Shown one piece after another: positions 30-61,614 of a stretch of 64,000 nt of DNA. Below the pieces are notes generated by a model. It was not told the origin of the DNA, did no database searches, and saw only the letters and a program-made list of their open reading frames with translations. Each line of letters begins with the position of its first letter. Position 1 is the stretch's first letter. A program made the position numbers and the translations under genes. Origin of the DNA: Celeribacter sp. PS-C1. GTDB lineage: Bacteria > Pseudomonadota > Alphaproteobacteria > Rhodobacterales > Rhodobacteraceae. Location of the stretch: NCBI RefSeq assembly GCF_019429625.1, contig NZ_JAHXRW010000004.1, positions 248,001 through 312,000 of the forward strand, read 5' to 3'.

Positions 30-1667
30 CTACCTCTGAGGAAATCCCAAAGATTTCAGAGCGCCATGCAATTCCTGGTACTTGCGCGGGTTTTTGATTG
101 GAAAGGCCTTGAAGAAAGCGTCGATCGTCGCATCGCTTCTGCGCGCCCGGGTCTCACTGGCCCAGTAAAGGGCTTTCTCCTCATGTCCCGCTACCTGATG
201 GATCGCCGCGGCAAAGGCGCTGATCAGATAGTGTGCGCCGGGTGTGCGGGCGCCCTGCTCGGCCCAATAGGCGCCCTCTTCCATATTATCTTGATGAAAA
301 TGCGCGATCCCCTTTGCGCTGAGCATCGCATACCGGAACGGATCAAGCGGGCTCAGCGTGACCGACCGTTTGAGATTGCCCAGCGCCTGCCCTCCATCTC
401 CGGCCATGATGTCCGCCCACACATGAGCATAGAACCCCTGTGCAAAGCTGGGGCTCAGGCTGACCGACCGCTCGAGCCAGGACTGTCCCGCCAAAGGATC
501 TCCGCGTAGCCAGTTGGCGCGACCAAAGGTGAAATTGGCGAAAGGATCCAGAGGATCAAGTTCAAGGCTGCGCTCCGCGTGCCTCTGGGCATCCTCGATG
601 GATTTTGGCCGATCATTGCTATAGCGCAGGAAAGCGTCCTGAAAGCTAACGAAAGACCGGGCCGCGTGGGCGCGGGCGAAATGCGGGTCAAGCTCGGTCG
701 CGCGCCGAAAATAATCGGCGGCAGTGGCATTGTCTGCTTTGTTAAAACGGTAAGCGTGCTGCAGGCCCAGATGATAAAGAGACCAAGCGTCCAAGTCCGA
801 AGGTGAGCGGAGATGCGCCAACTGGGCCTCGTGCTGGGGCACATGCAGCTCCAAGGCCGAGACAACAAGCGCTACGATCCTCTCCCGAATTTCATGAACA
901 TCGTCGATTTTACCCGACAGCCGATCCCCCCAGACCACTTGAGCGGTCTCGGCATCCACAAGCTCCACCGCGATGCCTAAGGAGCGGCCGAGCAGTTCCA
1001 CTTCGCCCGACAGGACATAGGTGACACCAAGCGCAGCACGGATCGTGTCGATATCTTGTGCAGGCGGTCGAAAACGGAAACTCGACCCACGCGCGATGAC
1101 CGAGAGCCAGCGCAGGCGGGAGAGCGTCGAAATCAGTTCACCGGGGATCGCATCTGCGATGGTGCCAAAGGCTTCGGATATACCGATCAGATCGAAGGGC
1201 AGCACCGCAAGCGTCGGTTTGCGATCAACAGGCCCAGCCGTCTCTGACGGCCCCTCCACCTCGTGTTCCTCGACGCTGACCAACGTCGTGCGAGTCGTCG
1301 GGATAACCCGCACCTCCGTCCCAAATCGAAATCCTCGCCCGTGCACGGTTCGAATGTAGCGCTGCTGTTTGCCATCGTCGCCAAGCGCACGGCGCAGGGA
1401 TTTGATGACGGTTGAGACGGCGGCATCCGAAATGAAACGCCCTTCCCAGACCTTTTCGATAAGCTCATCCCTTGCGACCAGCCGCTCGGCGTTCTGCACA
1501 AGATGACCGAGGACCGCGTAAGCCATGGGTTCCATCGACACGGCTTCTTCGCCGTGGCGCAACTCGCCACGGTCGAGATCCAATACGAAGTCATCGAAAG
1601 CGTAGTGCACCTCGTCACCACCAGCCAAACCCCAAGTATCCTCATAAAATACCCACGCCATCCTCAA
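30..1667 (-). CDS. winged-helix regulator with TolB-like and TPR region
   Basis: A 545-residue cytoplasmic transcription factor with no receiver domain. Residues about 20-118 form an OmpR/CadC-type winged helix, with the recognition-helix area around DAAVSTVIKSLRRALGD and the wing around RTVHGRGFRF. Residues about 150-280 resemble the TolB-like segment of adenylate-cyclase/TPR regulators (LAVLPFDLIG, YVLSGEV). The remainder is TPR-like (ATELDPHFARAHA, SLELDPLDPFANF). It is divergent from the OsmC/monooxygenase operon across about 225 bases, so it is the obvious candidate regulator of that operon (inference). No transmembrane segment is evident, unlike true CadC. A start two codons downstream is also possible. 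Confidence 0.85.
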   Translation of the reverse strand: MRMAWVFYEDTWGLAGGDEVHYAFDDFVLDLDRGELRHGEEAVSMEPMAYAVLGHLVQNAERLVARDELIEKVWEGRFISDAAVSTVIKSLRRALGDDGKQQRYIRTVHGRGFRFGTEVRVIPTTRTTLVSVEEHEVEGPSETAGPVDRKPTLAVLPFDLIGISEAFGTIADAIPGELISTLSRLRWLSVIARGSSFRFRPPAQDIDTIRAALGVTYVLSGEVELLGRSLGIAVELVDAETAQVVWGDRLSGKIDDVHEIRERIVALVVSALELHVPQHEAQLAHLRSPSDLDAWSLYHLGLQHAYRFNKADNATAADYFRRATELDPHFARAHAARSFVSFQDAFLRYSNDRPKSIEDAQRHAERSLELDPLDPFANFTFGRANWLRGDPLAGQSWLERSVSLSPSFAQGFYAHVWADIMAGDGGQALGNLKRSVTLSPLDPFRYAMLSAKGIAHFHQDNMEEGAYWAEQGARTPGAHYLISAFAAAIHQVAGHEEKALYWASETRARRSDATIDAFFKAFPIKNPRKYQELHGALKSLGFPQR

Positions 1668-1892
1668 GACGACAAGAGAATTCTCCAGCTATTGCTAGGT
1701 CATCGGAACACACACCGAGATCACAACAAGGGAGAAAGACCTCAAAACCCGACGAACGACGCTCAGCGCACCGTGCAGAATCACGGGCCAATTCGCGAGG
1801 TTCGGCACCAGCACAAAGTGGCGGGATCGCCGTCACAACTTACCCAACCCAACCAAACACCCATCAAAAAAATCCATCAGGAAGGACATCCA
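1668..1892. promoter_or_regulatory. divergent intergenic region of the OsmC operon
   Basis: These 225 bases separate the divergent regulator from the OsmC gene and must hold promoters for both. Near the OsmC start an AGGAAGGA ribosome-binding site is visible around 1879-1886. I could not identify a convincing -35/-10 pair or operator palindrome by eye. Confidence 0.45.
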
Positions 1893-2450
1893 ATGCAAAC
1901 CACCACCACAGTTTCAAACGGCGTCGACACCGAAGCCCTCATCGGCGCACGCGGCGCATTCGAACAAATGCCCGAAGCGGCCGCCTTCAAATTCCGCAGC
2001 ACCTGCGAGTGGAACGAAGGCACCAACAACGTTAACCTGATCAACGGCTACTTTGGCCTCGGTGAGAACCACGAGCGCAAACAGACTTTCCGCATCGAAA
2101 GTGATCACCCCGCGGTTTTCGCCGCCGCCGACCGTGCTCCGACCCCGCCGGAAATCGTGCTCGCAGCCCTTGCCAGCTGCCTCACCGGCGGTGTTGCCGC
2201 CGTCGCCCAACATCGCGGCATCCAATTGCACAAGATGCGTGCTATGGTGGAAGGCGACATCGACGTGCGCGGCATCCTTGGTATGGACGGCGATATCCGC
2301 AATGGCTTCTCGGACATTCGCGTGACCTTTGAGATCGACGCCGACGCAACCGAAGACGAAATCCGTGCGCTGGTCGCCCAGTCGCAAAAGCGCTCCGCCG
2401 TGTTCGATATCCTCACCAACCCGACGAACGTCAATGTGACGGTCGCCTGA
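1893..2450 (+). CDS. OsmC family protein (single-cysteine variant)
   Basis: A 185-residue OsmC/Ohr-fold protein. I chose the ATG at 1893 because AGGAAGGA lies just upstream; the open frame reaches back to 1503, but that part overlaps the divergent regulator. The family core is seen at residues 80-110 (RAPTPPEIVLAALASCLTGG), with the first conserved cysteine at C96. Classical OsmC proteins use a second cysteine in the C-terminal helix, and here that position appears to be Ser158 (QKRSAVFDIL). Peroxidase chemistry by the usual Cys pair is therefore doubtful; binding or carrying an acyl or thiol group is an alternative. It is the first gene of a five-gene operon. Confidence 0.88.
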   Translation: MQTTTTVSNGVDTEALIGARGAFEQMPEAAAFKFRSTCEWNEGTNNVNLINGYFGLGENHERKQTFRIESDHPAVFAAADRAPTPPEIVLAALASCLTGGVAAVAQHRGIQLHKMRAMVEGDIDVRGILGMDGDIRNGFSDIRVTFEIDADATEDEIRALVAQSQKRSAVFDILTNPTNVNVTVA

Positions 2451-2478
2451 TCCGCCCGGTCCGACAGGAGGCAATCCA

Positions 2479-3714
2479 ATGAAACATATCGGAACTCTCA
2501 TCATCGGCGCCGGTCAGGCCGGTCTCGCGATGAGCCGCTGCTTGTCGGACCGTGGCATCCGTCACGTCATTCTGGAACGTGGCAAGGTAGCAAATTCGTG
2601 GAGCCACGAACGCTGGGACAGCCTGCGGCTCCTCACCCCCAACTGGCAAAGTCGGCTGCCCGGCTTTGCCTATGACGGCCCCGACCCGGACGGTTTCATG
2701 TCCATGCCCGAGGTCGTTCGTTATCTCGAAACCTATGCCGAGGCGAGCAAGGCGCCTGTCGAAGAGCACACCAAAGTTCGTGCTGTCTCACCCTCCGGCA
2801 GCGGCTATCTCGTGGAAACCGACCGTGGCACCTGGCGTTGCGAAACACTTATCCTCGCCACGGGCGCCTGCAACATAGCCTCTGTTCCTGCGCTCTCAGG
2901 CGATATTTCCAAGGAAATCGACCAGATCACCTCGCTCGCGTATCGCAACCCCGGCCAATTGGCAGACGGCGGTGTTCTCGTTGTCGGCGCCTCTGCGACT
3001 GGCGTCCAGCTTGCCGCTGAGATCCGTGCGGCGGGTCATGATGTGATCCTCTCCACCGGAGAGCACATCCGGATGCCGCGGCATTACCGCGGTCGTGACA
3101 TTCAATGGTGGATGGAGGCCGGAGGCATTCACGCGACCCCAATCGACGAGGTCGACGATGTCAATCGCGCCCGGAGCGTCCCGTCGCTGCAACTGATCGG
3201 CTCTCACGACCGTCAGTTCTGTGACCTCGCCTCCCTGTCCGACGCTGGCGTCGAGATCGTCGGTCGGCTCGGCGGCGTTCGCGATGGTATGGCGCTTTTC
3301 TCCGGCGCGCTTGCCAATCACTGTGCCCTGTCTGATCTGAAGATGAACCGCCTGCTCGACGCGCTCGACCTGTGGGCGGAGGACAACGCGGTGCCAAACA
3401 TCGGCGCCATCGAACGCTTTGCGAGCACACCAGTCCCAAGCCCCTCGCGTCTGATGATGCCGCTGTCGGACGGACGGATCAAAACGATCCTCTGGGCGAC
3501 AGGCTTTCGGCCCGACTACAGCTGGCTCAACCTGCCGGTCTTTGATCGTAAGGGCGCGCTCATGCACGACCGAGGCATTGTCGCACCGGGCCTCTATATT
3601 CTCGGCCTCCCGTTCATGCGCCGCCGCAATTCCGCGCTGATCGACGGTGTCGGTCACGATGCCGCAACGCTTGCCGATCACATTCTCATTCAACGCGGTC
3701 GCTCGGCGGCCTGA
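2479..3714 (+). CDS. FAD-dependent flavoprotein monooxygenase-like protein
   Basis: A 411-residue two-dinucleotide-binding-domain flavoprotein. GAGQAG at residues 10-15 is the FAD Rossmann motif, and GASATG at 170-175 is the NAD(P)H Rossmann motif. LILATGAC near residue 130 and ILWATGFRPDYSW near 335 are the ATG-type motifs of flavin-containing monooxygenases and related oxidoreductases. The family adds one oxygen atom to soft N or S nucleophiles or to ketones; the substrate here is unknown. An AGGAGG sequence lies about seven bases before the ATG. It sits between two OsmC-like genes in a tight operon, so a sulfur nucleophile is an attractive inference, not a demonstrated substrate. Confidence 0.85.
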   Translation: MKHIGTLIIGAGQAGLAMSRCLSDRGIRHVILERGKVANSWSHERWDSLRLLTPNWQSRLPGFAYDGPDPDGFMSMPEVVRYLETYAEASKAPVEEHTKVRAVSPSGSGYLVETDRGTWRCETLILATGACNIASVPALSGDISKEIDQITSLAYRNPGQLADGGVLVVGASATGVQLAAEIRAAGHDVILSTGEHIRMPRHYRGRDIQWWMEAGGIHATPIDEVDDVNRARSVPSLQLIGSHDRQFCDLASLSDAGVEIVGRLGGVRDGMALFSGALANHCALSDLKMNRLLDALDLWAEDNAVPNIGAIERFASTPVPSPSRLMMPLSDGRIKTILWATGFRPDYSWLNLPVFDRKGALMHDRGIVAPGLYILGLPFMRRRNSALIDGVGHDAATLADHILIQRGRSAA

Positions 3715-3726
3715 TAGGAGACTTCC

Positions 3727-4299
3727 ATGACGACTCTCTCAAAGATCAAATCCCAAGAGCCCCCGAAGCGGGATCAGGTGATCCGCGATGCACAGAACGC
3801 TGTTATCGACAGGATGTCTCAGGACCTTGAGGCCGCTTGCAGCACATTGGTGACCACCGGACGGATCGAAGAAGGTCTCGCCTGTCATGTCACCCAGGGC
3901 AAATTCGAAGCCATGCTCGACTTGGGGCGCGGGATGGGCGGTGATGCCGCTGGACCCAGCCCCGGCTTCTTTGCCCGCGCCGCCGTCGTCGGCTGCGTCG
4001 GAATGGGCGTCAAAATGCTGGCCGCCCGCGAAGGGTTCGTCTTCCGTTCGCTCGAGGTCACCATCGAATGCGACTTCGATGATGCTGCGCTCATGGGACT
4101 AAGCCCGCGCACCGCGGCGCCGCTCATGTCGCGCATTCGGATCGAAATCGACACCGGCGATGATCCTGCCGCCGTTGATGACCTGGTCGAACGCGCCCTC
4201 GCGATGGACCCCTGGTTCCTCGCGCTTCGCGACGCCCAAGTCGTCCAACATGAAGTTCACCTCACCGCTCCCGCGTCGGAACAGGTTTCGGCCACGTGA
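3727..4299 (+). CDS. second OsmC-like protein
   Basis: A 190-residue protein that I read as a divergent OsmC-fold member. GPSPGFF at about residues 77-83 followed by AAVVGCVGMGVKM, with C90, matches the OsmC central helix. A strand pattern (LEVTIECDFDD) follows. The second catalytic cysteine position is not conserved (DPWFLALRD). It differs strongly from the OsmC protein at the head of the operon, so the two are distant relatives rather than a recent duplication. It starts 12 bases after the flavoprotein stop, and its stop overlaps a possible GTG start of the next gene. Function unknown. Confidence 0.72.
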   Translation: MTTLSKIKSQEPPKRDQVIRDAQNAVIDRMSQDLEAACSTLVTTGRIEEGLACHVTQGKFEAMLDLGRGMGGDAAGPSPGFFARAAVVGCVGMGVKMLAAREGFVFRSLEVTIECDFDDAALMGLSPRTAAPLMSRIRIEIDTGDDPAAVDDLVERALAMDPWFLALRDAQVVQHEVHLTAPASEQVSAT

Positions 4300-4331
4300 C
4301 GCTTTCCAAACGCACAAAGGATACCAAGACC

Positions 4332-5840
4332 ATGCATAGCACCACAATTTCCCGCGAGATCGCCCAGCCGAAAGCTTCTATCCTCGATACCATCGGCGAC
4401 ACCCCGATCATCCGCATCAACCGGCTTGGCCCCGATCACGTCGATCTTTTCGTTAAGGTCGAAGCCTTTAATCCCGGAGGGTCAATCAAGGATCGTTTTG
4501 CTCTTGCCGCCATTGAGGCCGCAGAGGCGAGCGGAGAGTTGAAACCCGGCCAGACGATCGTCGAGGCGACCTCGGGCAATACCGGGATCGGCCTTGCTCT
4601 GGTCTGCGCGGCCAAGGGCTACCCGCTCGTCGTCACAATGGCGGAAAGCTTTAGCGTCGAACGGCGCAAGCTGATGCGGTTTCTCGGCGCCAAAGTGGTG
4701 CTGACCCCTGCGGCTCAGAAAGGCACCGGCATGCTGGCAAAGGCCGAAGAACTGGCGCGTGAACATGGCTGGTTCCTTGCCCGTCAATTCGAAAACGAAG
4801 CCAATGCGGACATGCATTCCCGTACCACGGCGCGCGAAATTGTCGACGCTTTCGGCGGCACAGGCCCCGATATCTGGGTGAGCGGGTTTGGCACCGGCGG
4901 GACCTTGAAGGGCGTGAGCCGCGTGCTCCGCGCCGAATGTCCGCACACAAGGATCATAGTGGCCGAACCTGACAATGTCCCGATGCTTCAAAGCGGGATC
5001 GCGCAGGTTCGTGACGCAGAGGGGCGCCCCGCAAGCCATCCGTCGTTTCGCCCGCATCTCATGCAGGGCTGGTCGCCGGATTTCATTGCGAAGCTTGCCG
5101 AAGATGCCGTCATGGCGGGGGCCGTCGACCAGTATCAACCTGTTTCAGGCAACGCCGCCTTGCAGGCTGCCCGTGATCTGGCCGCGAAAGAAGGGATCTT
5201 CTGCGGCATTAGCTCCGGTGCAACTTTTGCCGCCGCCTTGCAGGTCGCTGAAACCGCGCCTGCCGGGTCCAAGATCCTCGCAATGCTTCCCGACACCGGC
5301 GAACGCTATATGACCACCGTCCTCTTTGATGAGGTTGGCGAAGACATGAGCGAGGAGGAACTTGAGATTTCGCGCTCCACGCCGGGTGCTCGCTTTGATG
5401 TCGCCGCCCCCGCTCCTGCACCCGCCGCAGCAGCGCCCGCTCCGTCGTGCAAACCAGAAGCGGCCGCGATGGTCGATGACATCGTCGCGGAGCATCCGGT
5501 CGTCATGTTCGTACTTGAATGGTGCGAGTTTAGCTGGTCCGTGCGCAAACTCTTTGCCGCCGCCGGCATCCCCTACCACGCCGTGGAACTCGACGCTGCC
5601 GTGATGCAGAAAGACAATCTTGGTGGCGAGTTGCGTGCAGCCCTTGGCGTCAAAGCCGGAGCACCAACAATCCCACAAATCTTTGTCGGCGGAGAACATG
5701 TCGGCGGCGCAACGGATACCTTCGATGGCTTTAAGGACGGTTCGATGACCGAGCGCCTTGCCGCCGCCGGTGTTCCCTTTGACGCTTCCAAAACAACCGA
5801 TCCCTACGGCTACCTGCCGAGCTGGATGTACCCGAGGTGA
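4332..5840 (+). CDS. cysteine synthase fused to a glutaredoxin domain
   Basis: About 502 residues. Residues 15-340 are an O-acetylserine sulfhydrylase-type PLP enzyme: GGSIKDRFAL with the Schiff-base lysine K53, EATSGNTGIGLAL substrate loop, GTGGTLKG phosphate-binding loop, and GISSGATFAA. A Pro/Ala linker of about 25 residues leads to a glutaredoxin domain at about 380-490, with the active-site segment WCEFSW (C398, S401, a CxxS monothiol form) and TIPQIFVGG at the glutathione-binding position. I chose the ATG at 4332, which has AAAGGA ten bases upstream. A GTG at 4296, overlapping the previous stop, would add 12 residues. The fusion suggests glutathione-linked thiol delivery to or from the beta-replacement active site (inference). 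Confidence 0.93.
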   Translation: MHSTTISREIAQPKASILDTIGDTPIIRINRLGPDHVDLFVKVEAFNPGGSIKDRFALAAIEAAEASGELKPGQTIVEATSGNTGIGLALVCAAKGYPLVVTMAESFSVERRKLMRFLGAKVVLTPAAQKGTGMLAKAEELAREHGWFLARQFENEANADMHSRTTAREIVDAFGGTGPDIWVSGFGTGGTLKGVSRVLRAECPHTRIIVAEPDNVPMLQSGIAQVRDAEGRPASHPSFRPHLMQGWSPDFIAKLAEDAVMAGAVDQYQPVSGNAALQAARDLAAKEGIFCGISSGATFAAALQVAETAPAGSKILAMLPDTGERYMTTVLFDEVGEDMSEEELEISRSTPGARFDVAAPAPAPAAAAPAPSCKPEAAAMVDDIVAEHPVVMFVLEWCEFSWSVRKLFAAAGIPYHAVELDAAVMQKDNLGGELRAALGVKAGAPTIPQIFVGGEHVGGATDTFDGFKDGSMTERLAAAGVPFDASKTTDPYGYLPSWMYPR

Positions 5841-5846
5841 GTCATC

Positions 5847-7271
5847 ATGAATATGCCGCGCCGCCCCGCAGACCATGCTTCGGACGATCTCCTCGTACGA
5901 ACTTCCCGCTATTGTCAGGCCTATCGCACGCGCCAGCGTCCGATTGACCCGACGGTGACACCATCTCAGCTTAGAGAAAGTTTCTGTCTGCCTCTCAGCG
6001 AGCACGGGGAGCCTGCCGCTACCGTGATCGAAGACCTGATCGCAGCGGCGGAACCCGGACTGGTCGGCAGCACTGACCCCAATTTCTTTGCCTGGGTGAT
6101 CGGCGGCTCCGACCCGGTCGGCGTGGCGGCAGATTGGTTGACCAGCACCTGGGGCCAGAATGCGGCTATTTATCAGTCCTCGCCTGCGGCAGCCGTCGCG
6201 GAAGAAGCAGTGGCGAGCTGGCTTCTGGACCTTCTTGATCTCCCCCGAGCAAGTTCCGTCGGGTTGGTCAACGGGGCGACAATGGCAACTTTTGTTGGCC
6301 TCGCCGCCGCACGAGATGAGGTCCTCCGGCGGCATGGCCACGACTACGCAACCAATGGATTGCAGGGGGCGCCACTGGTCCGCATCTACTTGAGCGACGA
6401 TGCCCATGTCGCCAATTACGCGGCTCTGCGCCAGCTTGGCTTCGGCGAAGTCAACATCCACAAGCTACCGTCAAATGCTGCTGGGCTTATGCGCGCAGGT
6501 GACCTGGCGCGGGCGATGGAGGAACATGTTGGCCCGAAAATCGTCATCGCACAGGCGGGGCATATCAACTCGGGCGGGTTTGAGCCGCTCGCGGAGATCG
6601 CAAACATTGCCCGCACGCATGATGCCTGGATGCATGTCGATGGCGCATTCGGGCTTTGGGCACGGGCCTCTACCGCTCATCAACATCTGACTGACGGGGC
6701 CGAACTTGGCGACAGCTGGTCCGTGGATGGACATAAATGGCTTCAGATCCCCTATGCGTCAGGTTTTGCCATTGTGCGGCACCCGGACGCACATCGCCGC
6801 GCGATGAGCATGAATGCCGGCTACCTCAATAGTGGCGAAAATGACGGACGCAGCCCATCGGCCTATGTGCCCGAGCTGTCCAGACGCGCAAAAGGGTTTG
6901 CGGCATGGGCTGTCCTGAGACATTTGGGACGACAGGGTATCGAAGACCTCGTCGAGCGCCATTGCGCGGCGGCAAAAAATCTCGCCTCGCGTATCGAACA
7001 GATCGACGGCCTCTCTGTCTTAAATGAAGTCACACTCAACCAAATCATCGTCGGCTGCGAAGACCAAAACCTCGAAGACCGTCTCATTCCCGCACTCAGC
7101 ACACAGTTGAATGAACGCCAGCGCAGTTTCGTCAGAACCGCACGTTGGAAAGGCCGGACGATCCTGAGACTCTCGATCATTTCAAAAGACACGGAAACGC
7201 GTCACACCAGTTCTTTGGCGAATGAAATTGCCACAGCATGGCAGATCGTTACGGCAGACGCGCACGCGTAA
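5847..7271 (+). CDS. PLP-dependent group II decarboxylase
   Basis: A 474-residue fold-type I enzyme of the DDC/glutamate decarboxylase/cysteine sulfinate decarboxylase superfamily. WMHVDGAFG contains Asp265, which contacts the PLP nitrogen. SWSVDGHKW contains the Schiff-base Lys297. FFAWVIGGSDP and TWGQNAAIY near residues 75-105 match the N-terminal substrate region. The family decarboxylates aromatic or acidic amino acids; the substrate cannot be read from sequence. It begins six bases after the cysteine-synthase fusion and closes the operon. A product of that enzyme, a substituted or oxidised cysteine, is therefore a reasonable candidate substrate, by inference only. Confidence 0.88.
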   Translation: MNMPRRPADHASDDLLVRTSRYCQAYRTRQRPIDPTVTPSQLRESFCLPLSEHGEPAATVIEDLIAAAEPGLVGSTDPNFFAWVIGGSDPVGVAADWLTSTWGQNAAIYQSSPAAAVAEEAVASWLLDLLDLPRASSVGLVNGATMATFVGLAAARDEVLRRHGHDYATNGLQGAPLVRIYLSDDAHVANYAALRQLGFGEVNIHKLPSNAAGLMRAGDLARAMEEHVGPKIVIAQAGHINSGGFEPLAEIANIARTHDAWMHVDGAFGLWARASTAHQHLTDGAELGDSWSVDGHKWLQIPYASGFAIVRHPDAHRRAMSMNAGYLNSGENDGRSPSAYVPELSRRAKGFAAWAVLRHLGRQGIEDLVERHCAAAKNLASRIEQIDGLSVLNEVTLNQIIVGCEDQNLEDRLIPALSTQLNERQRSFVRTARWKGRTILRLSIISKDTETRHTSSLANEIATAWQIVTADAHA

Positions 7272-7415
7272 ACAGATGCTATCTGTCGAATTCAACCCTG
7301 TCTCTTCATAGACAGCAAAGCTGTCCCTTATGCCTCGCAGAAACAGTGCCACTCGGCGAGAGCGGCGGCGTGGTTTACTTTGTAGCTTAGTCTTGAGGTG
7401 AGGCTTCGCTCCGAG
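7271..7415 (+). repeat. diverged direct repeat, copy A
   Basis: Aligns without gaps to 8831-8940 over its first 110 positions at about 73% identity (80 of 110 counted by eye). The core 7321-7380 is 48/60 identical. Similarity continues with small gaps to about 7415. It begins at the stop codon of the decarboxylase gene. No intact reading frame is shared by the copies. It may be a remnant of a dispersed intergenic element. Confidence 0.7.
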
Positions 7416-7517
7416 TTGAACGGGTTGTAGATGGAAGTGAGCGGACGACGACAACGAAGTAAATCTCAGTCCTTCATAGTAGCGGGCTCAAAAAAGTCCG
7501 TTTCTTCGGCCCCCTTC

Positions 7518-7760
7518 TCAACAGCCGTCCTCATTCGGGAAGTTTTTGAAATCCATCGGCGTCCCGCCTTCGGCATTGATTTTCAAAACAGAAATCTGGC
7601 TTTCAATCGCCTCAAAGCTTGTTGCGTCCTCAACGCTCCAAACTTTATTCAAAGCGTCCTCGCAGGGCGTTTGTGAGCGGGCTTCAGATGCGGCAAATGA
7701 CAAGAGCACACCGAAGGCGGAGACTGTTAAGGTTGAGATGGTTCTCTGAACAATTGTCAT
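7518..7760 (-). CDS. small exported protein of unknown function
   Basis: An 80-residue protein. I chose the ATG at 7760 because AGGAAGGAG lies about eight bases upstream and the following residues form a signal peptide: hydrophobic TLTVSAFGVLLSFAASEARS with a plausible cleavage site near residue 25. The mature part of about 55 residues has a cysteine near each end (PCED and the C-terminal DGC), which could form a disulfide in the periplasm. The gene follows the rhodanese gene on the same strand after 92 bases, so cotranscription is likely. I recognise no family. Confidence 0.65.
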   Translation of the reverse strand: MTIVQRTISTLTVSAFGVLLSFAASEARSQTPCEDALNKVWSVEDATSFEAIESQISVLKINAEGGTPMDFKNFPNEDGC

Positions 7761-7852
7761 TTCGACGCTCCTTCCTTGATCTTGCCCCGCAGAGGCAGGC
7801 GATATGCTTTTGCATGCTTTTTGACCGGACCTGAGTGCTTCGCAATTTGCGA

Positions 7853-8452
7853 TTACTTCAAATCGCTCGGATAGACTTGCTCCGGCGCGATCGAATAACT
7901 CCAATCGAGACCCGCATTTTTCCAACCGTTCACCGCGCGGTGTCCGCGTTCAATGCCATCTTTCGCTTTGTCACCTTCAAAGCCGTCAATGACGGAATAA
8001 ACCTGTGTATAGCCAAGCTCATAGATGATGTTGGCGGCTTTCGCGCTTCGAGAGCCGGAGCGACAGATGATGACGATTGGCGCATCATCCGGCAGGTCAA
8101 GTGTCTCGGCATAATCAAGAAAGTCGAACTCAAACGAAGGGTTCGGCTCCAGATCATAGCTGCGCTTCTCTGGATCGTAATGAGCCGTCTCTGGCATCAC
8201 CATCAAAGGGATATGAACATTCACCCTTTCAGGAATGCCAACAAAAGAAACTTCCGGACGACTACGAACGTCAATCAAGAGAACGTCGTCGTTTTTCAAA
8301 ACTTCGAATGCCTCAGAAGCCGTCAGGTAAAGCGCCGCTTTGGTGCGTTTCGTGTCAGGGATATTCTGAGTGTCGTCGGCGAGTACGGGATATGCAAGAA
8401 AGCCAGCAATAAGCCCGAGCGTTGCGCTGACAGCGGCAGTAGAGCAAGCCAT
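7853..8452 (-). CDS. exported rhodanese-domain protein
   Basis: A 199-residue protein with an N-terminal signal peptide (hydrophobic stretch ending near PVLADD, about residue 26) and one rhodanese domain. VLLIDVRSRPEVSFVGIP matches the entry strand, and IICRSGSRSAKAA holds the catalytic loop with C130. Such proteins transfer sulfane sulfur or handle persulfides; the signal peptide places it in the periplasm. A GGAG ribosome-binding site precedes the start. A 12-bp inverted repeat lies 17 bases upstream. Its location beside the thiol operon may be functional, but direct repeats flank the segment, so it may also be an independent insertion. Confidence 0.88.
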   Translation of the reverse strand: MACSTAAVSATLGLIAGFLAYPVLADDTQNIPDTKRTKAALYLTASEAFEVLKNDDVLLIDVRSRPEVSFVGIPERVNVHIPLMVMPETAHYDPEKRSYDLEPNPSFEFDFLDYAETLDLPDDAPIVIICRSGSRSAKAANIIYELGYTQVYSVIDGFEGDKAKDGIERGHRAVNGWKNAGLDWSYSIAPEQVYPSDLK

Positions 8453-8468
8453 AGCTTTGTCTCCATTT

Positions 8469-8518
8469 CAGCGGGCACTCACGACTCTAAAACACACCAC
8501 GCACACGAGTGCCCGCTG
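8469..8518 (-). promoter_or_regulatory. 12-bp perfect inverted repeat in the rhodanese leader
   Basis: The arm 8469-8480 (CAGCGGGCACTC) is exactly complementary to 8507-8518, with a 26-base spacer. It lies 17 bases upstream of the rhodanese ATG, next to its ribosome-binding site. In RNA it would be a strong stem-loop; in DNA it could be a two-site operator. No U-tract follows, so it is not a typical terminator. Confidence 0.6.
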
Positions 8519-8830
8519 TCCGAAAGGGATGCAAAGATGTGATTGAAAGCGTCTTAGGCCAAGAGACTTACGCTAGGTAATGTAACAGAATCGTGAGTTT
8601 TGAGCAAGGTTTCCATCCTCCGCCCCCCCCTATTTCACGCTCAGGCCACAACCATGAATGCCATTGATCGGCTTTAAAATGGAACAGCAAGATGCTTGAT
8701 AAAAAATGAGCATGTGCGAGAAATCAAAGTGTTGCTCCTCATATGCTGGCTAAACGATGAGACGCCTCATGCCTGCACCTGAGGCAGACACGCGATTGAT
8801 CGCATATTGGGAACTAGGCCATATTCCGCT

Positions 8831-8975
8831 GAATGGTGCTACCAGACGAATTCGAACTAGTCCGGGCATGGACCGCATAGCTGCCCCTTATGCCGCGCAG
8901 AGACCGCGCCACTCTGCGAGAGCTGCGGCAAGGTTCGATTTGAAAAGGTTATAGAGCGAGGCGTTCGCGGCGGAG
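8831..8975 (+). repeat. diverged direct repeat, copy B
   Basis: Direct repeat of 7271-7415, in the same orientation 1560 bases downstream. Together the copies flank the rhodanese/small-protein pair. The segment CTTATGCCGCGCAG is nearly identical in both. It lies about 100 bases from the end of the PEP synthase gene. Confidence 0.7.
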
Positions 8976-9073
8976 AACGCCTGAAAACTCTGATCGAAAT
9001 GCCACTGCCAACGGCTCGGCCGCATTCCGTCGGCGCGGCGCAGTGAGGAAACCAGCATTGAGGTTCCGCTAGG

Positions 9074-11470
9074 CTACAAAACGCCTTCGGCTCCCGCCAC
9101 GTTCTCCTTGACGGCAAGGTAACTGTCGGGCGTGACCGAAATCGTGTCGATCCCAGCTTTCACCAGCAAGCGGGCGAAATCCGGGTCATTGCTGGGGGCC
9201 TGACCGCACAGTCCCACCTTGCGCCCCGCAGCGTGGGCTTTGGCGATCACCGTTTCGATCATCCACATCACTGCCGGATCACGTTCGTTGAATTGCGGAG
9301 CAAGCGCTTCGGAATCCCGGTCGATCCCCAAGGTCAGCTGTGTCAGGTCGTTCGACCCGATTGAAAAGCCGTCAAAGCGCTCGGCAAAGGCTTCGGCGCT
9401 GATCACATTCGAAGGTATCTCGCACATGACATAGACTTGAAGGCCGCCCTCTCCGCGCTTGAGCCCATTCTCCGCCATGATCTCGAGGACGCGGTCCGCC
9501 TCGTCCAAAGTGCGGCAGAAGGGGATCATCACGATCACATTGTCGAAGCCTTTCTCTTCGCGCAGCTTCTTGATGGCGCGGCACTCCAAGGCAAACCCAT
9601 CTTTATAGCCGTCCGAATAGTAGCGCGAGGCACCACGGAAGCCGATCATCGGGTTCGCTTCTTCGGGTTCAAACATCCGCCCGCCCATCAGATCAGCGTA
9701 TTCGTTGGTCTTGAAATCGCTCATCCGGATGATTGTCGGGTTCGGGTAATAGACCGCCGCGATCCGAGCCAGCCCCATAGACAGTTTATCGACGAAATAA
9801 TCCCGACGATCCGCGTAACTTTTGGTCAGCGCATCGACCGCCTTTTGATCTTCTACGTCAAGTTGGTCATGGCGCGTCAGAGCCAGCGGATGAACTTTCA
9901 CCTCGTTGCTCACGACGAACTCCATCCGGGCAAGTCCCACGCCATCCGTCGGCAGCCGCCACCACCGCATCGCGGCAGACGGGTTGGCAAGGTTGAGCAT
10001 CACTTTGGTCCTTGTCACAGGCACGTCGTCCAAAGGGACCTCCTGCACTGTCACATCCGCCTTGCCGGCATAGATCAGGCCGTCTTCCCCCTCGGCACAG
10101 GACACCGTGACCATCTGATGATCATGCAGGACTTTCGTGGCATTGCCCGTACCGACAATGGCAGGCACGCCAAGCTCGCGGCTGATGATCGCCGCGTGCG
10201 AGGTCCGGCCCCCGTGATCCGTTACGATCGCGGAGGCGCGTTTCATGATCGGCACCCAATCAGGGTCCGTGGTCGAGGTCACCAGAACTGCGCCATCGAC
10301 GAAGCGGTCGATGTGTTCCGCCGTCTCGATGATGCAAACTTCACCACTGGCCACTGCGGCTCCGACACTGAGGCCTTTGGCGAGGACCTCACCTCGATTT
10401 TCCAGCGTGTAGGATTTCATCGCGCCGGAGTTGGCATGCGATTGCACGGTCTCAGGCCGGGCCTGTACGATGTACAAAAGCCCGTCTTCCCCATCGCGCG
10501 CCCATTCCATGTCCATCGGGCAGCCGTAATGGGTTTCAATTGACACCGCAGCGCGCGCCAGTTCCAAGATCTCCGCATCTGTCAGAACGATCTGTTCCCG
10601 CTCGGATTTCGATGTGGGCACATTGCGTGTGGCAACGGTGTCATCGGCGCCATAAATCATCTTAATCTCTTTGGCGCCCAGCGCCTTGTGGATGATGGGC
10701 GTGGTTTCGGGTCGGTTCAGGAAGGGTTTGTACACCTGATACTCATCGGGGCTCACCGCGCCCTGCACGACGTTTTCTCCCAAACCCCAAGCTGCGTTGA
10801 TCAACACGACCTTGTCGAAACCGCTCTCAGTATCGAGAGAGAACATGACGCCCGATCCGCCAATGTCAGAGCGCACCATCTGCTGAACACCGATCGACAA
10901 GGCCACCTCCAGATGATCGAAGCCTTTCAGTTCGCGGTAAGTGATCGCCCGATCGGTAAAGAGAGAGGCGTAACATTTACGGCAGGCGGTCAGCAGGGCC
11001 TCCTCTCCGACGACATTCAAAAACGTCTCCTGTTGACCCGCGAAACTTGCATCCGGAAGATCCTCTGCCGTCGCGGACGACCGCACAGCCACCGACGGAT
11101 TTTCCCGCCCGACACGTTTCCCCAATGCGCGGTAAGCCTCGCGGATGTCGGCCTCAATCTCAGCGGGCCAGACACCGGAACGGATGATCGTTCGGATCGC
11201 AGCCCCCGCCTCTGCCAAGGTCGCTCGACCGTCGGACAGCTTCTCCAGTTCCTCTTTCATTCCCCTGCCAAAATCATTGGCTTCCAGATATTTGCGATAA
11301 GCCCCAGAGGTTGTCGCGAACCCCGGCGGCACACGAATACCCGCGGCTGTCAGAGATTGAAGCATCTCGCCGAGAGAGGAGTTTTTCCCTCCGACCTTGG
11401 CAACATCCTCCCGTTTCAAATGCTCAAGCCAAATCAGTGATTGGCCGGTGTCACGGTTGCTTTGATCCAT
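9074..11470 (-). CDS. ppsA: phosphoenolpyruvate synthase
   Basis: About 798 residues, close to the usual 790-800. It converts pyruvate, ATP and water to PEP, AMP and phosphate for gluconeogenesis. The N-terminal ATP-grasp domain shows KVGGKNSSLGEM and RSSATAEDLPDASFAGQQ. The swivelling phosphohistidine domain has GGRTSHAAIISREL with H425. The C-terminal PEP/pyruvate barrel has GSNDLTQLTLG and the catalytic GLCGQAPS loop. I chose the start at 11470, where GAGAGGAGA is well spaced; ATGs at 11476 and 11524 are in frame. It is divergent from the N-ATPase operon, so the two may share control in the 224-base gap. Confidence 0.95.
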   Translation of the reverse strand: MDQSNRDTGQSLIWLEHLKREDVAKVGGKNSSLGEMLQSLTAAGIRVPPGFATTSGAYRKYLEANDFGRGMKEELEKLSDGRATLAEAGAAIRTIIRSGVWPAEIEADIREAYRALGKRVGRENPSVAVRSSATAEDLPDASFAGQQETFLNVVGEEALLTACRKCYASLFTDRAITYRELKGFDHLEVALSIGVQQMVRSDIGGSGVMFSLDTESGFDKVVLINAAWGLGENVVQGAVSPDEYQVYKPFLNRPETTPIIHKALGAKEIKMIYGADDTVATRNVPTSKSEREQIVLTDAEILELARAAVSIETHYGCPMDMEWARDGEDGLLYIVQARPETVQSHANSGAMKSYTLENRGEVLAKGLSVGAAVASGEVCIIETAEHIDRFVDGAVLVTSTTDPDWVPIMKRASAIVTDHGGRTSHAAIISRELGVPAIVGTGNATKVLHDHQMVTVSCAEGEDGLIYAGKADVTVQEVPLDDVPVTRTKVMLNLANPSAAMRWWRLPTDGVGLARMEFVVSNEVKVHPLALTRHDQLDVEDQKAVDALTKSYADRRDYFVDKLSMGLARIAAVYYPNPTIIRMSDFKTNEYADLMGGRMFEPEEANPMIGFRGASRYYSDGYKDGFALECRAIKKLREEKGFDNVIVMIPFCRTLDEADRVLEIMAENGLKRGEGGLQVYVMCEIPSNVISAEAFAERFDGFSIGSNDLTQLTLGIDRDSEALAPQFNERDPAVMWMIETVIAKAHAAGRKVGLCGQAPSNDPDFARLLVKAGIDTISVTPDSYLAVKENVAGAEGVL

Positions 11471-13597
<2,127 letters not shown>

Positions 13598-13601
<4 letters not shown>

Positions 13602-13882
13602 CACAGCCGCATGCCGTAAAAGACGAAGTCGAAGATGCCGCCCTTCAAGCCGTTGATCGAGCCCGGTTGGGCCACGACGACCCGGAGCCGTCCTTGGGGG
13701 CGCGGTTGGGACAAATCGGCATTCTTGGCTGGGCCATCGTCACACCGATGCTTTTGGGCATCGTTCTGGGGCGTTTCGCGGATCGGCATCTGGAAACCGG
13801 CATCTTCTTTACAGCCCCCGCGATTTTCATCGGCGCGGCGATCGGGTTTCACGCAGCCTGGAAGTGGATGCATCATCAATGA
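13598..13882 (+). CDS. atpQ: N-ATPase accessory membrane protein AtpQ
   Basis: A 94-residue protein overlapping the atpC stop by four bases. Residues 1-38 are acidic and hydrophilic. Two membrane helices follow, about 40-60 (IGILGWAIVTPMLLGIVLG) and 68-88 (GIFFTAPAIFIGAAIGF). This is the AtpI/AtpZ-like small subunit found third in N-ATPase operons and thought to help c-ring assembly or ion supply. The identification rests mainly on operon position plus the two-helix pattern, because proteins this small diverge quickly. Confidence 0.85.
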
Positions 13883-14151
13883 GCTTTTCTGTTTCACTCT
13901 TTGCGCTTGGGATCGTCGTCGGCTTCGTCTTGGGGCTGATCCATTTCGCCAGCCTCAAACGCGTCACCGCGCTCTACCTCGCTGACGGTCCGGTCTGGCG
14001 CGCGATAGGATTGCAAGTGCTGAGATTGGCCGTCCTGGCCGTTGCTTTGATCCTTATGGCGCGCCAAGGCGCCGTACCGCTTTTCGCGACGCTTGTCGGG
14101 CTCCTCCTCGCCCGCACTCTGGTCCTGCGTCGAGCCAAAATGGAGGCGTGA
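13879..14151 (+). CDS. atpR: N-ATPase accessory membrane protein AtpR
   Basis: A 90-residue hydrophobic protein starting at the ATGA overlap with atpQ. Three predicted membrane segments are visible: about 3-24, 38-56 (LQVLRLAVLAVALILMARQ) and 59-78. This is the N-ATPase-specific AtpR position, directly before subunit a; the two small proteins occur together only in this ATPase class. A conserved-looking arginine (VLRLAV) lies within a helix, a feature reported as typical of AtpR and proposed to interact with the c-ring. The exact function is not established. Confidence 0.83.
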   Translation: MSFSVSLFALGIVVGFVLGLIHFASLKRVTALYLADGPVWRAIGLQVLRLAVLAVALILMARQGAVPLFATLVGLLLARTLVLRRAKMEA

Positions 14152-14855
14152 TGGATAACCCGCTCACTCTTGATCCGCTCTTTCATCTGGGTCCCGTGCC
14201 GATCACCGCACCCGTAGCGGTGACTTGGGCCATCATGGTTGCTCTTGCACTGTTTTCTCTGTTGGCAACGCGCCATCTCAAATTGCACCCCGGCAAAATG
14301 CAAACGGTTTTGGAAGGTTTCGTCACGACCATCGACGGACAGGTGCGGGACACGATGAACCGCGATCCAGCCCCTTACCGTGCGCTGATTGGGACGATCT
14401 TTTTGTTTGTTCTGATTGCCAACTGGTCCTCTCTGATCCCCGGCATCGAACCGCCAACCGCGCATCTCGAAACCGACGCGGCACTGGCCTTGGTCGTATT
14501 CATCGCCACCATCGCCTATGGCATTTCCGGGCGAGGGTTGCGCGGCTATCTAGCGACCTTTGCCGAACCGAGCTGGGTGATGATCCCGCTCAATCTGATC
14601 GAACAGATCACCCGGACCTTTTCACTCATCGTGCGTCTTTTCGGCAATGTGATGAGCGGCGTTTTCGTGGTCGGCATCGTCTTGTCGCTGGCGGGGCTGT
14701 TCGTGCCAATTCCGTTGATGGCGCTCGACTTGCTGACCGGCGCAGTGCAGGCCTATATTTTTGCGGTGCTTGCCACGGTGTTCATCGGCGCCGCTGTCGG
14801 GGAGCAACCGAGGAAGGACAGCGATCCAAAGAATAAGGAGGACATGACACCATGA
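14151..14855 (+). CDS. atpB: N-ATPase subunit a
   Basis: A 234-residue polytopic Fo subunit that forms the ion half-channels against the c-ring. The diagnostic helix is TRTFSLIVRLFGNVMSG at about residues 157-173, with the essential arginine in VRLFGN. The N-terminal HLGPVPITAPV and the C-terminal LLTGAVQAYIFAVLATVFIG also fit the family. I chose ATG at 14151 (TGATG junction with atpR); a GTG at 14148 would add one residue. The sequence ends in a charged tail (RKDSDPKNKED), which doubles as an AAGGAGG-like ribosome-binding region for atpE. Confidence 0.93.
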   Translation: MDNPLTLDPLFHLGPVPITAPVAVTWAIMVALALFSLLATRHLKLHPGKMQTVLEGFVTTIDGQVRDTMNRDPAPYRALIGTIFLFVLIANWSSLIPGIEPPTAHLETDAALALVVFIATIAYGISGRGLRGYLATFAEPSWVMIPLNLIEQITRTFSLIVRLFGNVMSGVFVVGIVLSLAGLFVPIPLMALDLLTGAVQAYIFAVLATVFIGAAVGEQPRKDSDPKNKEDMTP

Positions 14856-15100
14856 CCGGAAATCTCATTGAAATCGTCTCGATACTGGCAGCTGCCATTG
14901 CGGTCAGTTTTGGCGCCATAGGGCCAGCTTTGGCCGAGGGGCGTGCCGTGGCCGCAGCCATGGACGCAATCGCCCGGCAACCCGAGGCGGCTGGAACGCT
15001 CAGCCGGACGCTCTTCGTCGGCCTCGCCATGATTGAAACCATGGCGATCTACACCTTGGTGATTGCCCTGCTGGTGCTTTTCGCGAACCCCTTCGTCTGA
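14852..15100 (+). CDS. atpE: N-ATPase subunit c (Na+-type ion ligands)
   Basis: An 82-residue two-helix c subunit. Aligned by eye to the Ilyobacter tartaricus Na+ c-ring, E29 in GPALAEGR takes the place of Gln32, E62 of Glu65, T63 of Ser66 and Y67 of Tyr70 (MIETMAIYTLVIALL). The Na+ site side-chain ligands are therefore present, with an extra carboxylate in helix 1. This arrangement, two acidic residues per hairpin, is known for N-ATPases and supports Na+ rather than H+ coupling. The ATG overlaps the atpB stop, and a strong AAGGAGG precedes it. Confidence 0.95.
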   Translation: MTGNLIEIVSILAAAIAVSFGAIGPALAEGRAVAAAMDAIARQPEAAGTLSRTLFVGLAMIETMAIYTLVIALLVLFANPFV

Positions 15101-15113
15101 AAGGCACACAGCC

Positions 15114-15848
15114 ATGACCATTGATTGGTGGACCTTGGGGCTTCAGACCATCAATGCGCTTGTCTTGATCTGGATTTTGGCGCGGTTCCTGTTTCGCCCG
15201 GTGTCTCAAATCATCGCCAAGCGGCAGGCTGCTGCACAGGCCGATCTGGATGCCGCACAACAGGCGCGTTCTGACGCCGAAACCGCATTGGCTGAGGCAC
15301 GACGAGAGGCCGCGCGCCTGATCCAGGATCGGGCGAAGGTGCTCAAGCACAGCCATGATGCCGCGGAAAAGGCGATGCAGCATCAACTTGAATTGGCCCG
15401 CCAAGATGCCGAGAAAGTGCGTGCCGCGGCAGAAGAAGACATCGCGAAGCGGCGCGCAGCGGCAGATGCGGAGATGAAACATCAGGCAACGATCTTGGCC
15501 GCGGACATTGCCGGTCGATTGATGACACGCCTGCCGGACGAAGCCCGTATCGAGGGGTTTACTGAGGGTTTGATCCAGTCAATTGCCGACTTGCCGGACG
15601 TCACCCGCGACGGGATCGGCGTAAACGGCCCGATCCCACTGCGAGCCGCACGGAAGCTGAGCGCGCATGAGGCGGCACGGATCAAGGCGCGGCTCTCCGA
15701 GGTTTTGGGGCGCGACGTAGAGATCAGCATGAGCACCGATCCAGATCTTTTGGCCGGTCTCGAAATCGATGCAGATCACGCCATCCTGCGCAACCATCTT
15801 CGGGCTGATCTTGAACGGATCAAAGCGGAGTTAACCGCCGATGACTGA
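15114..15848 (+). CDS. atpF: N-ATPase subunit b with delta-like C-terminus
   Basis: 244 residues, longer than the usual 155-175 residue b subunit. An N-terminal membrane helix ([19 protein letters not shown]) is followed by [10 protein letters not shown] and a long charged coiled coil to about residue 130. Residues about 180-240 ([28 protein letters not shown]) resemble the C-terminal end of the delta/OSCP subunit. No separate atpH lies in the operon, so the peripheral stalk appears to combine b and delta functions. Start at 15114 chosen by AAGG nine bases upstream; the frame extends to 15063 within atpE. Confidence 0.92.
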
Positions 15849-17373
15849 TCATCCTGTTTTTGCCAATTGGCTCGACGAGAGACGCCGAAAACTGGCGCGC
15901 ACCGGGCTGGCTCCGGAGACCGAAGTGGTGGGGCGTGTCGAGCGGGTGGCCGATGGAATCGCCCGAGTGACAGGTCTGCCGGATGCGACGCTTGGTGCCT
16001 TGTTTCGGTTCGAAAGCGGCGGCTACGGTTTTGCGCATGGGTTGGGGCGCGATGACATCGATGTCGTACTTTTAGATGATGCAACAGGCGTCGAGGCCGG
16101 GCAAAAGGTTATCGACACAGGTGAGGTGCTGCGTGTGCCCGTGGGCGAGGCGTTGTTGGGACGCATCGTTGATCCTTTGGGGCGCCCCCTTGATGGAGGT
16201 CCTGCGCCCCATACCGAAGAACGCCACCCGATCGAGCGGCCCGCGCCCTCGATTATCGAGCGCGATCTTGTCTCTGAACCTTTGGAAACCGGGACATTGG
16301 TTGTCGACAGTCTCTTCGCGCTTGGACGGGGACAACGCGAATTGATTGTGGGAGACCGAGCGACGGGTAAAACTGCCCTCGCGGTCGATGCGATCATCAA
16401 TCAAAAGGACACGGATGTGATCTGTGTCTATGTCGCCGTGGGACAACGGGCGACGGCCGTCGAACGGGTCGTGGCGGCGGTGCGCGAACATGGCAACATC
16501 GCGCGCTGTCTCTTTGTGGTCGGCGGGGCGGCGTCGGCGCCGGGGCTGCAATGGATTGCCCCTTTTGCCGGGATGACCATGGCCGAATACTTTCGCGACA
16601 AGGGACAGAACGCCCTGATCGTATTCGACGACCTTACCCAACATGCGATGACGCACCGTGAACTGGCTTTGCTCACCCGCGAACCGCCGGGCCGGGAAGC
16701 TTATCCGGGGGACATTTTCTACCTGCATGCGCGTCTTCTGGAGCGGGCGGCAAAACTGTCCAAGGAATTGGGGGGCGGATCTTTGACCGCTCTCCCGATC
16801 GCGGAGACAGATGGCGGCAATCTGTCTGCCTATATCCCGACCAACCTCATTTCGATCACCGATGGACAGATCGTGCTCAGTTCTCATTTGTTCGCCGCCA
16901 ATCAGCGGCCAGCGGTCGATGTGGGTCTCTCGGTCAGCCGTGTCGGCGGCAAGGCACAGAAAAAGGCTTTGCGCGCCGTTTCGGGGCGCGTCAGGCTCGC
17001 GTTTGCGCAGTTTCTGGAGTTGGAAATGTTCACCCGTTTCGGCGGCATTTCCAATCCGCGCGTGACAAAGCAAATTGCCCGAGGCGAACGGATCAGAACG
17101 CTTTTGACCCAACCGCGCTATGCGGGGTTACGCCTTGTCGATCAGGTGGCCCTGTTGGCTGCCCTCGCGGACGGAGCGCTTGACGACTGTGAGCCGAAAG
17201 ATATCCCTGAGTTGCGCCGCCGCTTGCCCTCGGCCTTGGATGAACGGGCGAAAGTGGCCGTTCAAAGGGTCACCTGTGAGGGCACTTTGCCGGATGAGGC
17301 GCGGTCCGCCTTGGTGGCGGTTGTGACAGGACTTGTCCATGAGATTGCGGGACAGAAAGGCGGTGCTCGATGA
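15841..17373 (+). CDS. atpA: N-ATPase subunit alpha
   Basis: A 510-residue non-catalytic nucleotide-binding subunit. The P-loop GDRATGKT lies at residues 171-178, with [14 protein letters not shown] before it and VSVSR-type [11 protein letters not shown] after it. ISITDGQI and the [13 protein letters not shown] segment fit the alpha C-terminal domain. It overlaps the end of atpF by eight bases. It forms the hexameric head with the atpD product. No feature suggests loss of function. Confidence 0.96.
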
Positions 17374-18221
17374 GTGCCGCCTACTCCGATGTTGCCGCCC
17401 GCATTGAAACGGTTCACAAATTGGAAGCCGTGATCGCCGCCATGCGCGGCATTGCCGCCGCCCGGGTTCAGGAAGCGCACGCGCATACACGAAGCATCCG
17501 CACCTATGCCACCACGATTGGGGATGCCATTGGTCATGCCCTGAGTTTCGTGCCGCTTCATGACAAACCGCCAAATGACACCGAAGAGACGCGCCATGTG
17601 GTCGTGCTTTTGACCGCCGAACAGGGGTTTGCAGGCGCCTTTAGTGAGGCAGTGTTTGCCGCGGCAGCTCCGGCGTTCGAGGGCGCATATGAGCTTTTGC
17701 TGATCGGAGGCCGCGGCCTTGAGATAAGCGCCGAACACGGCCGCGACGTCAGTTGGTCTGCCTCGATGATTGCGCATCCGGCAGAGACCTCCGGGCTTGC
17801 CACTCGGATTACTGATGCAATCTATGCACGCCTTGCCAAAGGCGATGTGTCCCACGTGTCGATCATACATTCTGAACCGGGCGAAGCGGGGCAGATCGAA
17901 ATGAAGGTGAGCCGGTTGGTGCCCTTTGACTATGGCCGTTTTACGATCGCGGACACATTGGTCCCGCCGCGTTTGACCCTGCCACCGGAACAGCTTTTGG
18001 AACGTTTGGTCGAGGAATATCTCTTCGCGGAAGTGAGTGAGGCGGTCATGTTGTCCTTTGCCGCCGAAAACGAAGCACGGATGCGGGCGATGATTGCGGC
18101 GCATGACAATGTGGTCGCCTCGCTTGAAACACTTGTCGCCGCATCGCGCCGACTGCGCCAACAGGAGATCACCGAAGAAATCGTCGAGCTCGCCACAGGC
18201 AGCATAACGCAGGACGCCTGA
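17370..18221 (+). CDS. atpG: N-ATPase subunit gamma
   Basis: A 283-residue central-stalk subunit, last gene of the ATPase cluster, starting at an ATGA overlap with atpA. The N-terminal helix [20 protein letters not shown] and the C-terminal helix [31 protein letters not shown] are the two long helices that form the rotating shaft. The middle is a Rossmann-like domain ([17 protein letters not shown]). Gamma subunits of N-ATPases are divergent, and only the terminal helices are well conserved here. Confidence 0.92.
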
Positions 18222-61557: not shown

Positions 61558-61584
61558 GGCCCTGTTCGAGCAACGACACAAAAC

Positions 61585-61614
61585 AAAACCGCGCAGCATT
61601 TGCGCGGTTTTGTG
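61585..61614 (+). terminator. terminator of tyrS
   Basis: AAAACCGCGCA-GCATT-TGCGCGGTTTT is a perfect eleven-pair stem with A and T tracts on both sides, 27 bases past the stop. Confidence 0.9.

Follow-up and report, generated by a model that had tools for sequence, protein, structure and literature searches.

A perfect inverted repeat ahead of a rhodanese gene in Celeribacter sp. PS-C1 as a possible lineage-specific leader stem-loop

What role, if any, does a perfect inverted repeat play immediately ahead of a rhodanese gene in Celeribacter sp. PS-C1? Within the window, that is, the whole stretch of 64,000 nucleotides that was analysed, the arms CAGCGGGCACTC at 8469-8480 and GAGTGCCCGCTG at 8507-8518, as read on the plus strand, are complementary at 12 of 12 positions (100%) across a spacer of 26 nt. 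The original prediction of a perfect 12-bp inverted repeat with a 26-base spacer in a rhodanese leader is thus borne out, both by the exact match of the arms and by the Pfam Rhodanese domain of the product, although the gap between the repeat and the ATG amounts to 16 bases rather than the 17 claimed. Read along the minus strand, the leader consists of CAGCGGGCACTC, the 26-nt spacer, GAGTGCCCGCTG, AAATGGAGACAAAGCT and the ATG (Table 1). The answer we favour, with a probability of roughly 45%, is a lineage-specific 5'-leader stem-loop that, judging from the fold predictions, might have a slight influence on the stability or translation of the mRNA, at most one of tuning. Under this model, the repeat is probably transcribed, within the rhodanese leader; it would then form a stable stem-loop of 12-15 bp, finishing 4 nt ahead of the Shine-Dalgarno-like GGAGA; the stem-loop would have arisen in this lineage alone; and, as a generic cis-acting leader hairpin, it would slow mRNA decay or slightly tune ribosome loading.

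Table 1. Features of the rhodanese gene and its leader, in window coordinates
Feature	Position	Strand	Basis
Stem 5' arm, in the orientation of the presumed rhodanese mRNA (CAGCGGGCACTC)	8507..8518	-	sequence, repeat search
Spacer, 26 nt; ends able to extend the RNA stem by one G-C pair and two G-U pairs	8481..8506	-	repeat search, fold
Stem 3' arm (GAGTGCCCGCTG)	8469..8480	-	sequence, repeat search
GGAGA, Shine-Dalgarno-like; 4 nt past the stem, 7 nt ahead of the ATG	8460..8464	-	read from sequence
Weak promoter-like stretch TTGCTC, 17 nt, TACATT; hypothetical	8579..8607	-	by eye
Rhodanese-domain protein, 199 aa; N terminus signal-peptide-like (by eye)	7853..8452	-	Pfam Rhodanese, E 3.1e-11

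Perfect repeats with arms of 12 or more and a spacer of 3-60 occur twice in the window, in the rhodanese leader and at 61583-61613. A set of 150 simulated 64-kb sequences (order-2 Markov) held 0.39 such repeats on average, with at least one in 28% of the sequences and at least two in 7%, and mononucleotide shuffles of the 130-nt leader held such a repeat in 14 of 40,000 cases. The claim that chance occurrence is low therefore stands for this leader but falls for the window as a whole. The position of the repeat in the rhodanese leader is only moderately unusual, given that more than a quarter of the simulated windows hold such a repeat whereas very few leader shuffles do, and for the whole window the repeat is unremarkable; because it was picked by a reader scanning the whole window, the chance argument is weaker still. 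These frequencies bear directly on the view that the repeat is a functionless, neutral accident, which arose by chance or when a template-switch mutation made a near-palindrome perfect. The simulated windows speak for such an accident, as does the lack of the stem in all 39 folded homologue leaders and of the exact 10-base-arm pattern in all 393 other family genomes; conversely, if some dozens of leaders in each window are roughly allowed for, the shuffle frequency still comes to an estimated one or a few per cent, and we consider a neutral origin somewhat unlikely. The second repeat, with 13-bp arms and a 5-nt loop, is the longest perfect short-spaced inverted repeat of the window, and may be a terminator because its arms start or finish in A/T-rich runs (ACAAAAC and GTTTTGT).

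The rhodanese-leader repeat itself is not an intrinsic terminator, as the absence of a U-tract after the stem on either strand indicates: the stem is followed by AAATGGAGAC on the minus strand and by TCCGAAAGGG on the plus strand. In this respect, the original prediction held. A terminator scan, which covers loops of 3-8 only, found none. We also considered and rejected a terminator of the upstream gene for a PEP-utilising enzyme, the stop of which, at 9074, lies more than 550 nt upstream of the stem, again with no U-tract. A comparison of positions 7000-9300 with 4227 Rfam families gave no match at the gathering score; the sole match up to E 5 was RF01360 at 8518-8549 on the plus strand, which scored 19.6 bits where the gathering score is 39.

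When the minus strand was folded as RNA over 61 nt, a stem of 15 pairs, two of them G-U, was predicted at -27.1 kcal/mol, with a z-score of -3.76 and 0 of 200 shuffles as good; over 91 nt, the z-score was -2.86 (1 of 200 shuffles as good), and over the 136-nt leader it was -1.04 (33 of 200), so that the fold of the longer leader is not more stable than those of the shuffles. The mean pairing probability of the 3' arm was 0.99-1.00 in all six predicted fragments that contain the repeat, and in the four fragments that reach further upstream the outermost C-G pair yields to a neighbouring helix, so that 14 pairs remain. For the plus strand, the RNA fold has 12 pairs at -23.5 kcal/mol with a z-score of -5.80, and because this is stronger than the score of the minus strand, folding does not prove a role in the mRNA.

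The original prediction had also proposed an RNA stem that controls ribosome access. The stem is physically plausible, as its folding suggests; control of access by the repeat is not supported, because the Shine-Dalgarno GGA is predicted to be paired with or without it. Pairing of GGA was 0.96-1.00 in all seven fragments, with differing partners, including the one fragment that lacks the repeat, where its partner is the beginning of the gene (0.96-0.99). In the four fragments starting at 8545 or 8575, the partner of GGA is a UCC that lies upstream, below the stem. Shuffled flanks gave equally good pairing between GGA and the 5' flank in 509 of 2000 cases, and in 1054 of 1500 when 33 nt of coding sequence was included. 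A longer, repeat-specific hairpin that sequesters the Shine-Dalgarno sequence was accordingly rejected, given that both the fragment without the repeat and the shuffled flanks pair GGA as well.

The spacer and the 3' arm are also crossed by a short reading frame, from a GTG at 8506 through 12 codons (VCVVCFRVVSAR, with two Cys) to a stop at the end of the stem. This frame could conceivably encode a leader peptide, in which case a ribosome moving along it, or stalling at its Cys codons, would open the stem or preserve it. Other bacteria have cysteine-coded attenuators, and the existence of the frame, with a stop where the 3' arm ends, fits this arrangement. However, by eye, there is no ATG and no clear Shine-Dalgarno sequence before the GTG, short frames are frequent by chance, and the repeat that the frame spans appears in none of the 39 folded homologue leaders; we therefore regard a leader peptide as very improbable. 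Even more doubtful is an elaboration in which the two-Cys peptide, translated through the 3' arm, would form a lineage-specific sulfur or cysteine switch, with the supply of cysteine or persulfide setting the opening of the stem and the amount of rhodanese.

A comparison with related leaders had been proposed as a check, and its outcome went against conservation, the first of the two findings named in advance as refuting the original prediction. For the rhodanese itself, matches at E <= 0.001 were found in 10 of the 41 relatives searched, including its own genome, and in none of the 19 other genomes of the genus, and matches at E <= 1e-30 in 19 of 394 family genomes (again counting its own). 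A scan of genome contigs yielded 21 homologue loci, the best five of which are 62-68% identical over the best segment. We folded 39 homologue leaders over 70 nt, with 100 shuffles each, and the stem appeared in none of them. The window's own leader had the lowest z-score (-3.12), and the five of the 39 homologues with z-scores of -2 or below form other structures. With the stem formed in none of the homologue leaders folded, neither covariation nor a sign of selection is seen. The folded set comprises 21 leaders (L038-L058) and 18 further loci, the latter folded over 70 nt only; it leaves out as duplicates L059, L060, L061, L063 and L065, which equal L039, L042, L043, L045 and L046, respectively, to judge by their N termini or upstream sequence, which are identical, and lies apart from the weaker homologues L004-L013. 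Start codons of the homologues were picked by hand, those of L044, L055 and L062 being uncertain. In a search for exact repeats (arms of at least 8, spacer of 3-60) up to 250 nt upstream of 21 homologues, the longest arms were 9, compared with 12 here; this search covered 21 of the 39 leaders, among them L047 and L052 with shorter upstream sequence and L050 with a run of N.

Furthermore, the pattern GCGGGCACTC-N16-36-GAGTGCCCGC, with exact 10-base arms, occurs in a single genome among the 394 of the family, namely, the window's own; these genomes are an even sample of a larger family and were scanned for exact 10-base arms only. At the DNA level, comparison of positions 8400-8900 with the 19 other genus genomes gave one non-self match, which lies outside the repeat: 28 nt at 8777-8804, 89% identical to a place in one genome of the genus (L037, E 0.006). 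By the folds of the 39 homologue leaders and the scan of the 394 family genomes, the leader is not a conserved structured RNA of the riboswitch-like kind.

Transcription of the repeat hinges on the location of the promoter. If the promoter-like stretch (Table 1) is real, the repeat lies inside the transcribed leader. A promoter scan found none. An expectation-maximisation motif search on 21 leaders (the window's and 20 homologues) scored 86.4 compared with 69.2-72.1 in six shuffled sets, which were seeded more coarsely than the real set, and its sites were scattered and inconsistent. The similarity among the leaders of the window and five near homologues (65) was not above that of 40 shuffled sets (mean 64.4, maximum 67). 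A conserved upstream promoter was rejected on the strength of this simpler similarity test, and we take the promoter-like stretch as a guess because the motif sites are inconsistent and the similarity is no better than in the shuffles.

The same repeat can be read as DNA. In this case, the arms would be operator half-sites 38 bp apart, centre to centre, at which a repressor, possibly one responsive to persulfide, would block the rhodanese promoter or act as a roadblock to transcription. The arms are exact in DNA, and the genome encodes ArsR-type regulators, with nine matches to PF01022. Of five probes picked for their conspicuous repeats and tested in PMC10451225, four were bound by the ArsR-type SoxR from Hyphomicrobium, a precedent that is compatible with an operator. 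There is also an inverted match at 11 of 12 positions between 8477-8488, in the 3' arm and spacer, and 8587-8598, in the presumed promoter region, which could be due to chance. The genome has two sites with the looser pattern GGCACTC-N8-38-GAGTGCC and none with its reversed control, but the second of the two lies within a coding frame that looks, by eye, like that of an M48-type peptidase. The arm is not enriched: with at most one mismatch it has 22 genome matches, two of them the arms themselves, compared with 39 for the reversed control. All nine ArsR-type matches lie outside the window, and a gene of the CsoR family was not found in the genome by a search that finds matches in 6 of 14 control genomes. 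Among the Pfam-scanned neighbours, which are not every ORF of the window, a DNA-binding regulator domain occurs only in the ORF at 30-1667, the nearest seen, and none lies within 1503-11524. The lack of leader similarity above shuffles among the five near homologues likewise speaks against an operator.

Taken together, these observations lend little support to the operator that had been proposed: ArsR-type regulators exist, but the one other similar site lies in a coding frame, the arm is not enriched, and neither a regulator domain among the neighbours scanned within 1503-11524 nor a CsoR-family gene was found. Neither similar sites before other genes nor an adjacent cognate repressor, as would mark the operator of a regulon repressor, was found. 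The repeat may nevertheless be a degenerate site or the target of a single-target repressor encoded elsewhere; overall, we hold an operator to be unlikely. A dispersed repeat or the end of a mobile element was considered separately and rejected, given that the genome shows no enrichment of the arm and that 8440-9080 has no second copy; by eye, no direct repeat flanks the 50 bp.

The neighbourhood of the rhodanese gene includes genes for a FAD-dependent oxidoreductase, two OsmC-like proteins, a PLP enzyme-glutaredoxin fusion, a decarboxylase and a PEP-utilising enzyme. The fusion, at 4296-5840, joins a PLP-dependent (cysteine-synthase-like) enzyme to a glutaredoxin domain and adjoins the two OsmC-like genes and the FAD-dependent oxidoreductase gene, forming a thiol-related cluster. 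The flanking decarboxylase has matches in none, and the flanking PEP-utilising enzyme in five, of the 19 other genus genomes. Divergent from the latter gene is what looks like an ATP synthase cluster (11695-18221), with b/OSCP-like and gamma-like Pfam matches and, by eye, a beta-like frame at 11695-13122. Compared with plasmids, positions 7800-8900 gave no match at E 1e-5; at E 0.01, a stretch outside the repeat (8835-8947) matches one plasmid. These 113 bp are 74% like an unannotated stretch of a Roseovarius indicus plasmid, which has argE on one side and a type IV conjugative-transfer gene on the other, and are possibly a remnant of mobile DNA.

For a leader stem-loop, then, we count the predicted pairing of the 3' arm and the z-score of the 61-nt minus-strand fold; the predicted extension of the minus-strand stem by G-U pairs, compared with 12 pairs on the plus strand; the placement of the repeat shortly before the ATG and apparently downstream of the sole promoter-like stretch seen by eye; and the uniqueness of the exact arm, which has no other occurrence in the genome. 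Against it stand the homologue leaders, all of which lack the stem, the stronger plus-strand score, the unexceptional 136-nt fold, the pairing of the Shine-Dalgarno sequence regardless of the repeat and the negative promoter scan. If functional, the stem would be a further example of a local leader hairpin, here one that tunes a rhodanese. The case also carries a caution: a perfect 12-bp leader repeat may be genuine and well positioned although none of the homologous leaders examined has it.

With the operators of the sulfane-sulfur-responsive ArsR-family repressors SqrR, BigR, SoxR and sHdrR, the locus shares an inverted repeat before a sulfur-metabolism gene in an alphaproteobacterium, but here neither an adjacent regulator nor a second intergenic site was found. 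In bacteria, 5'-leader stem-loops can stabilise the mRNA or modulate ribosome loading, as in the E. coli ompA leader. Unlike leaders of the ompA type, the stem described here is not conserved in the homologue leaders examined; what it has in common with them is a stable predicted stem-loop in a presumed leader, near the Shine-Dalgarno sequence.
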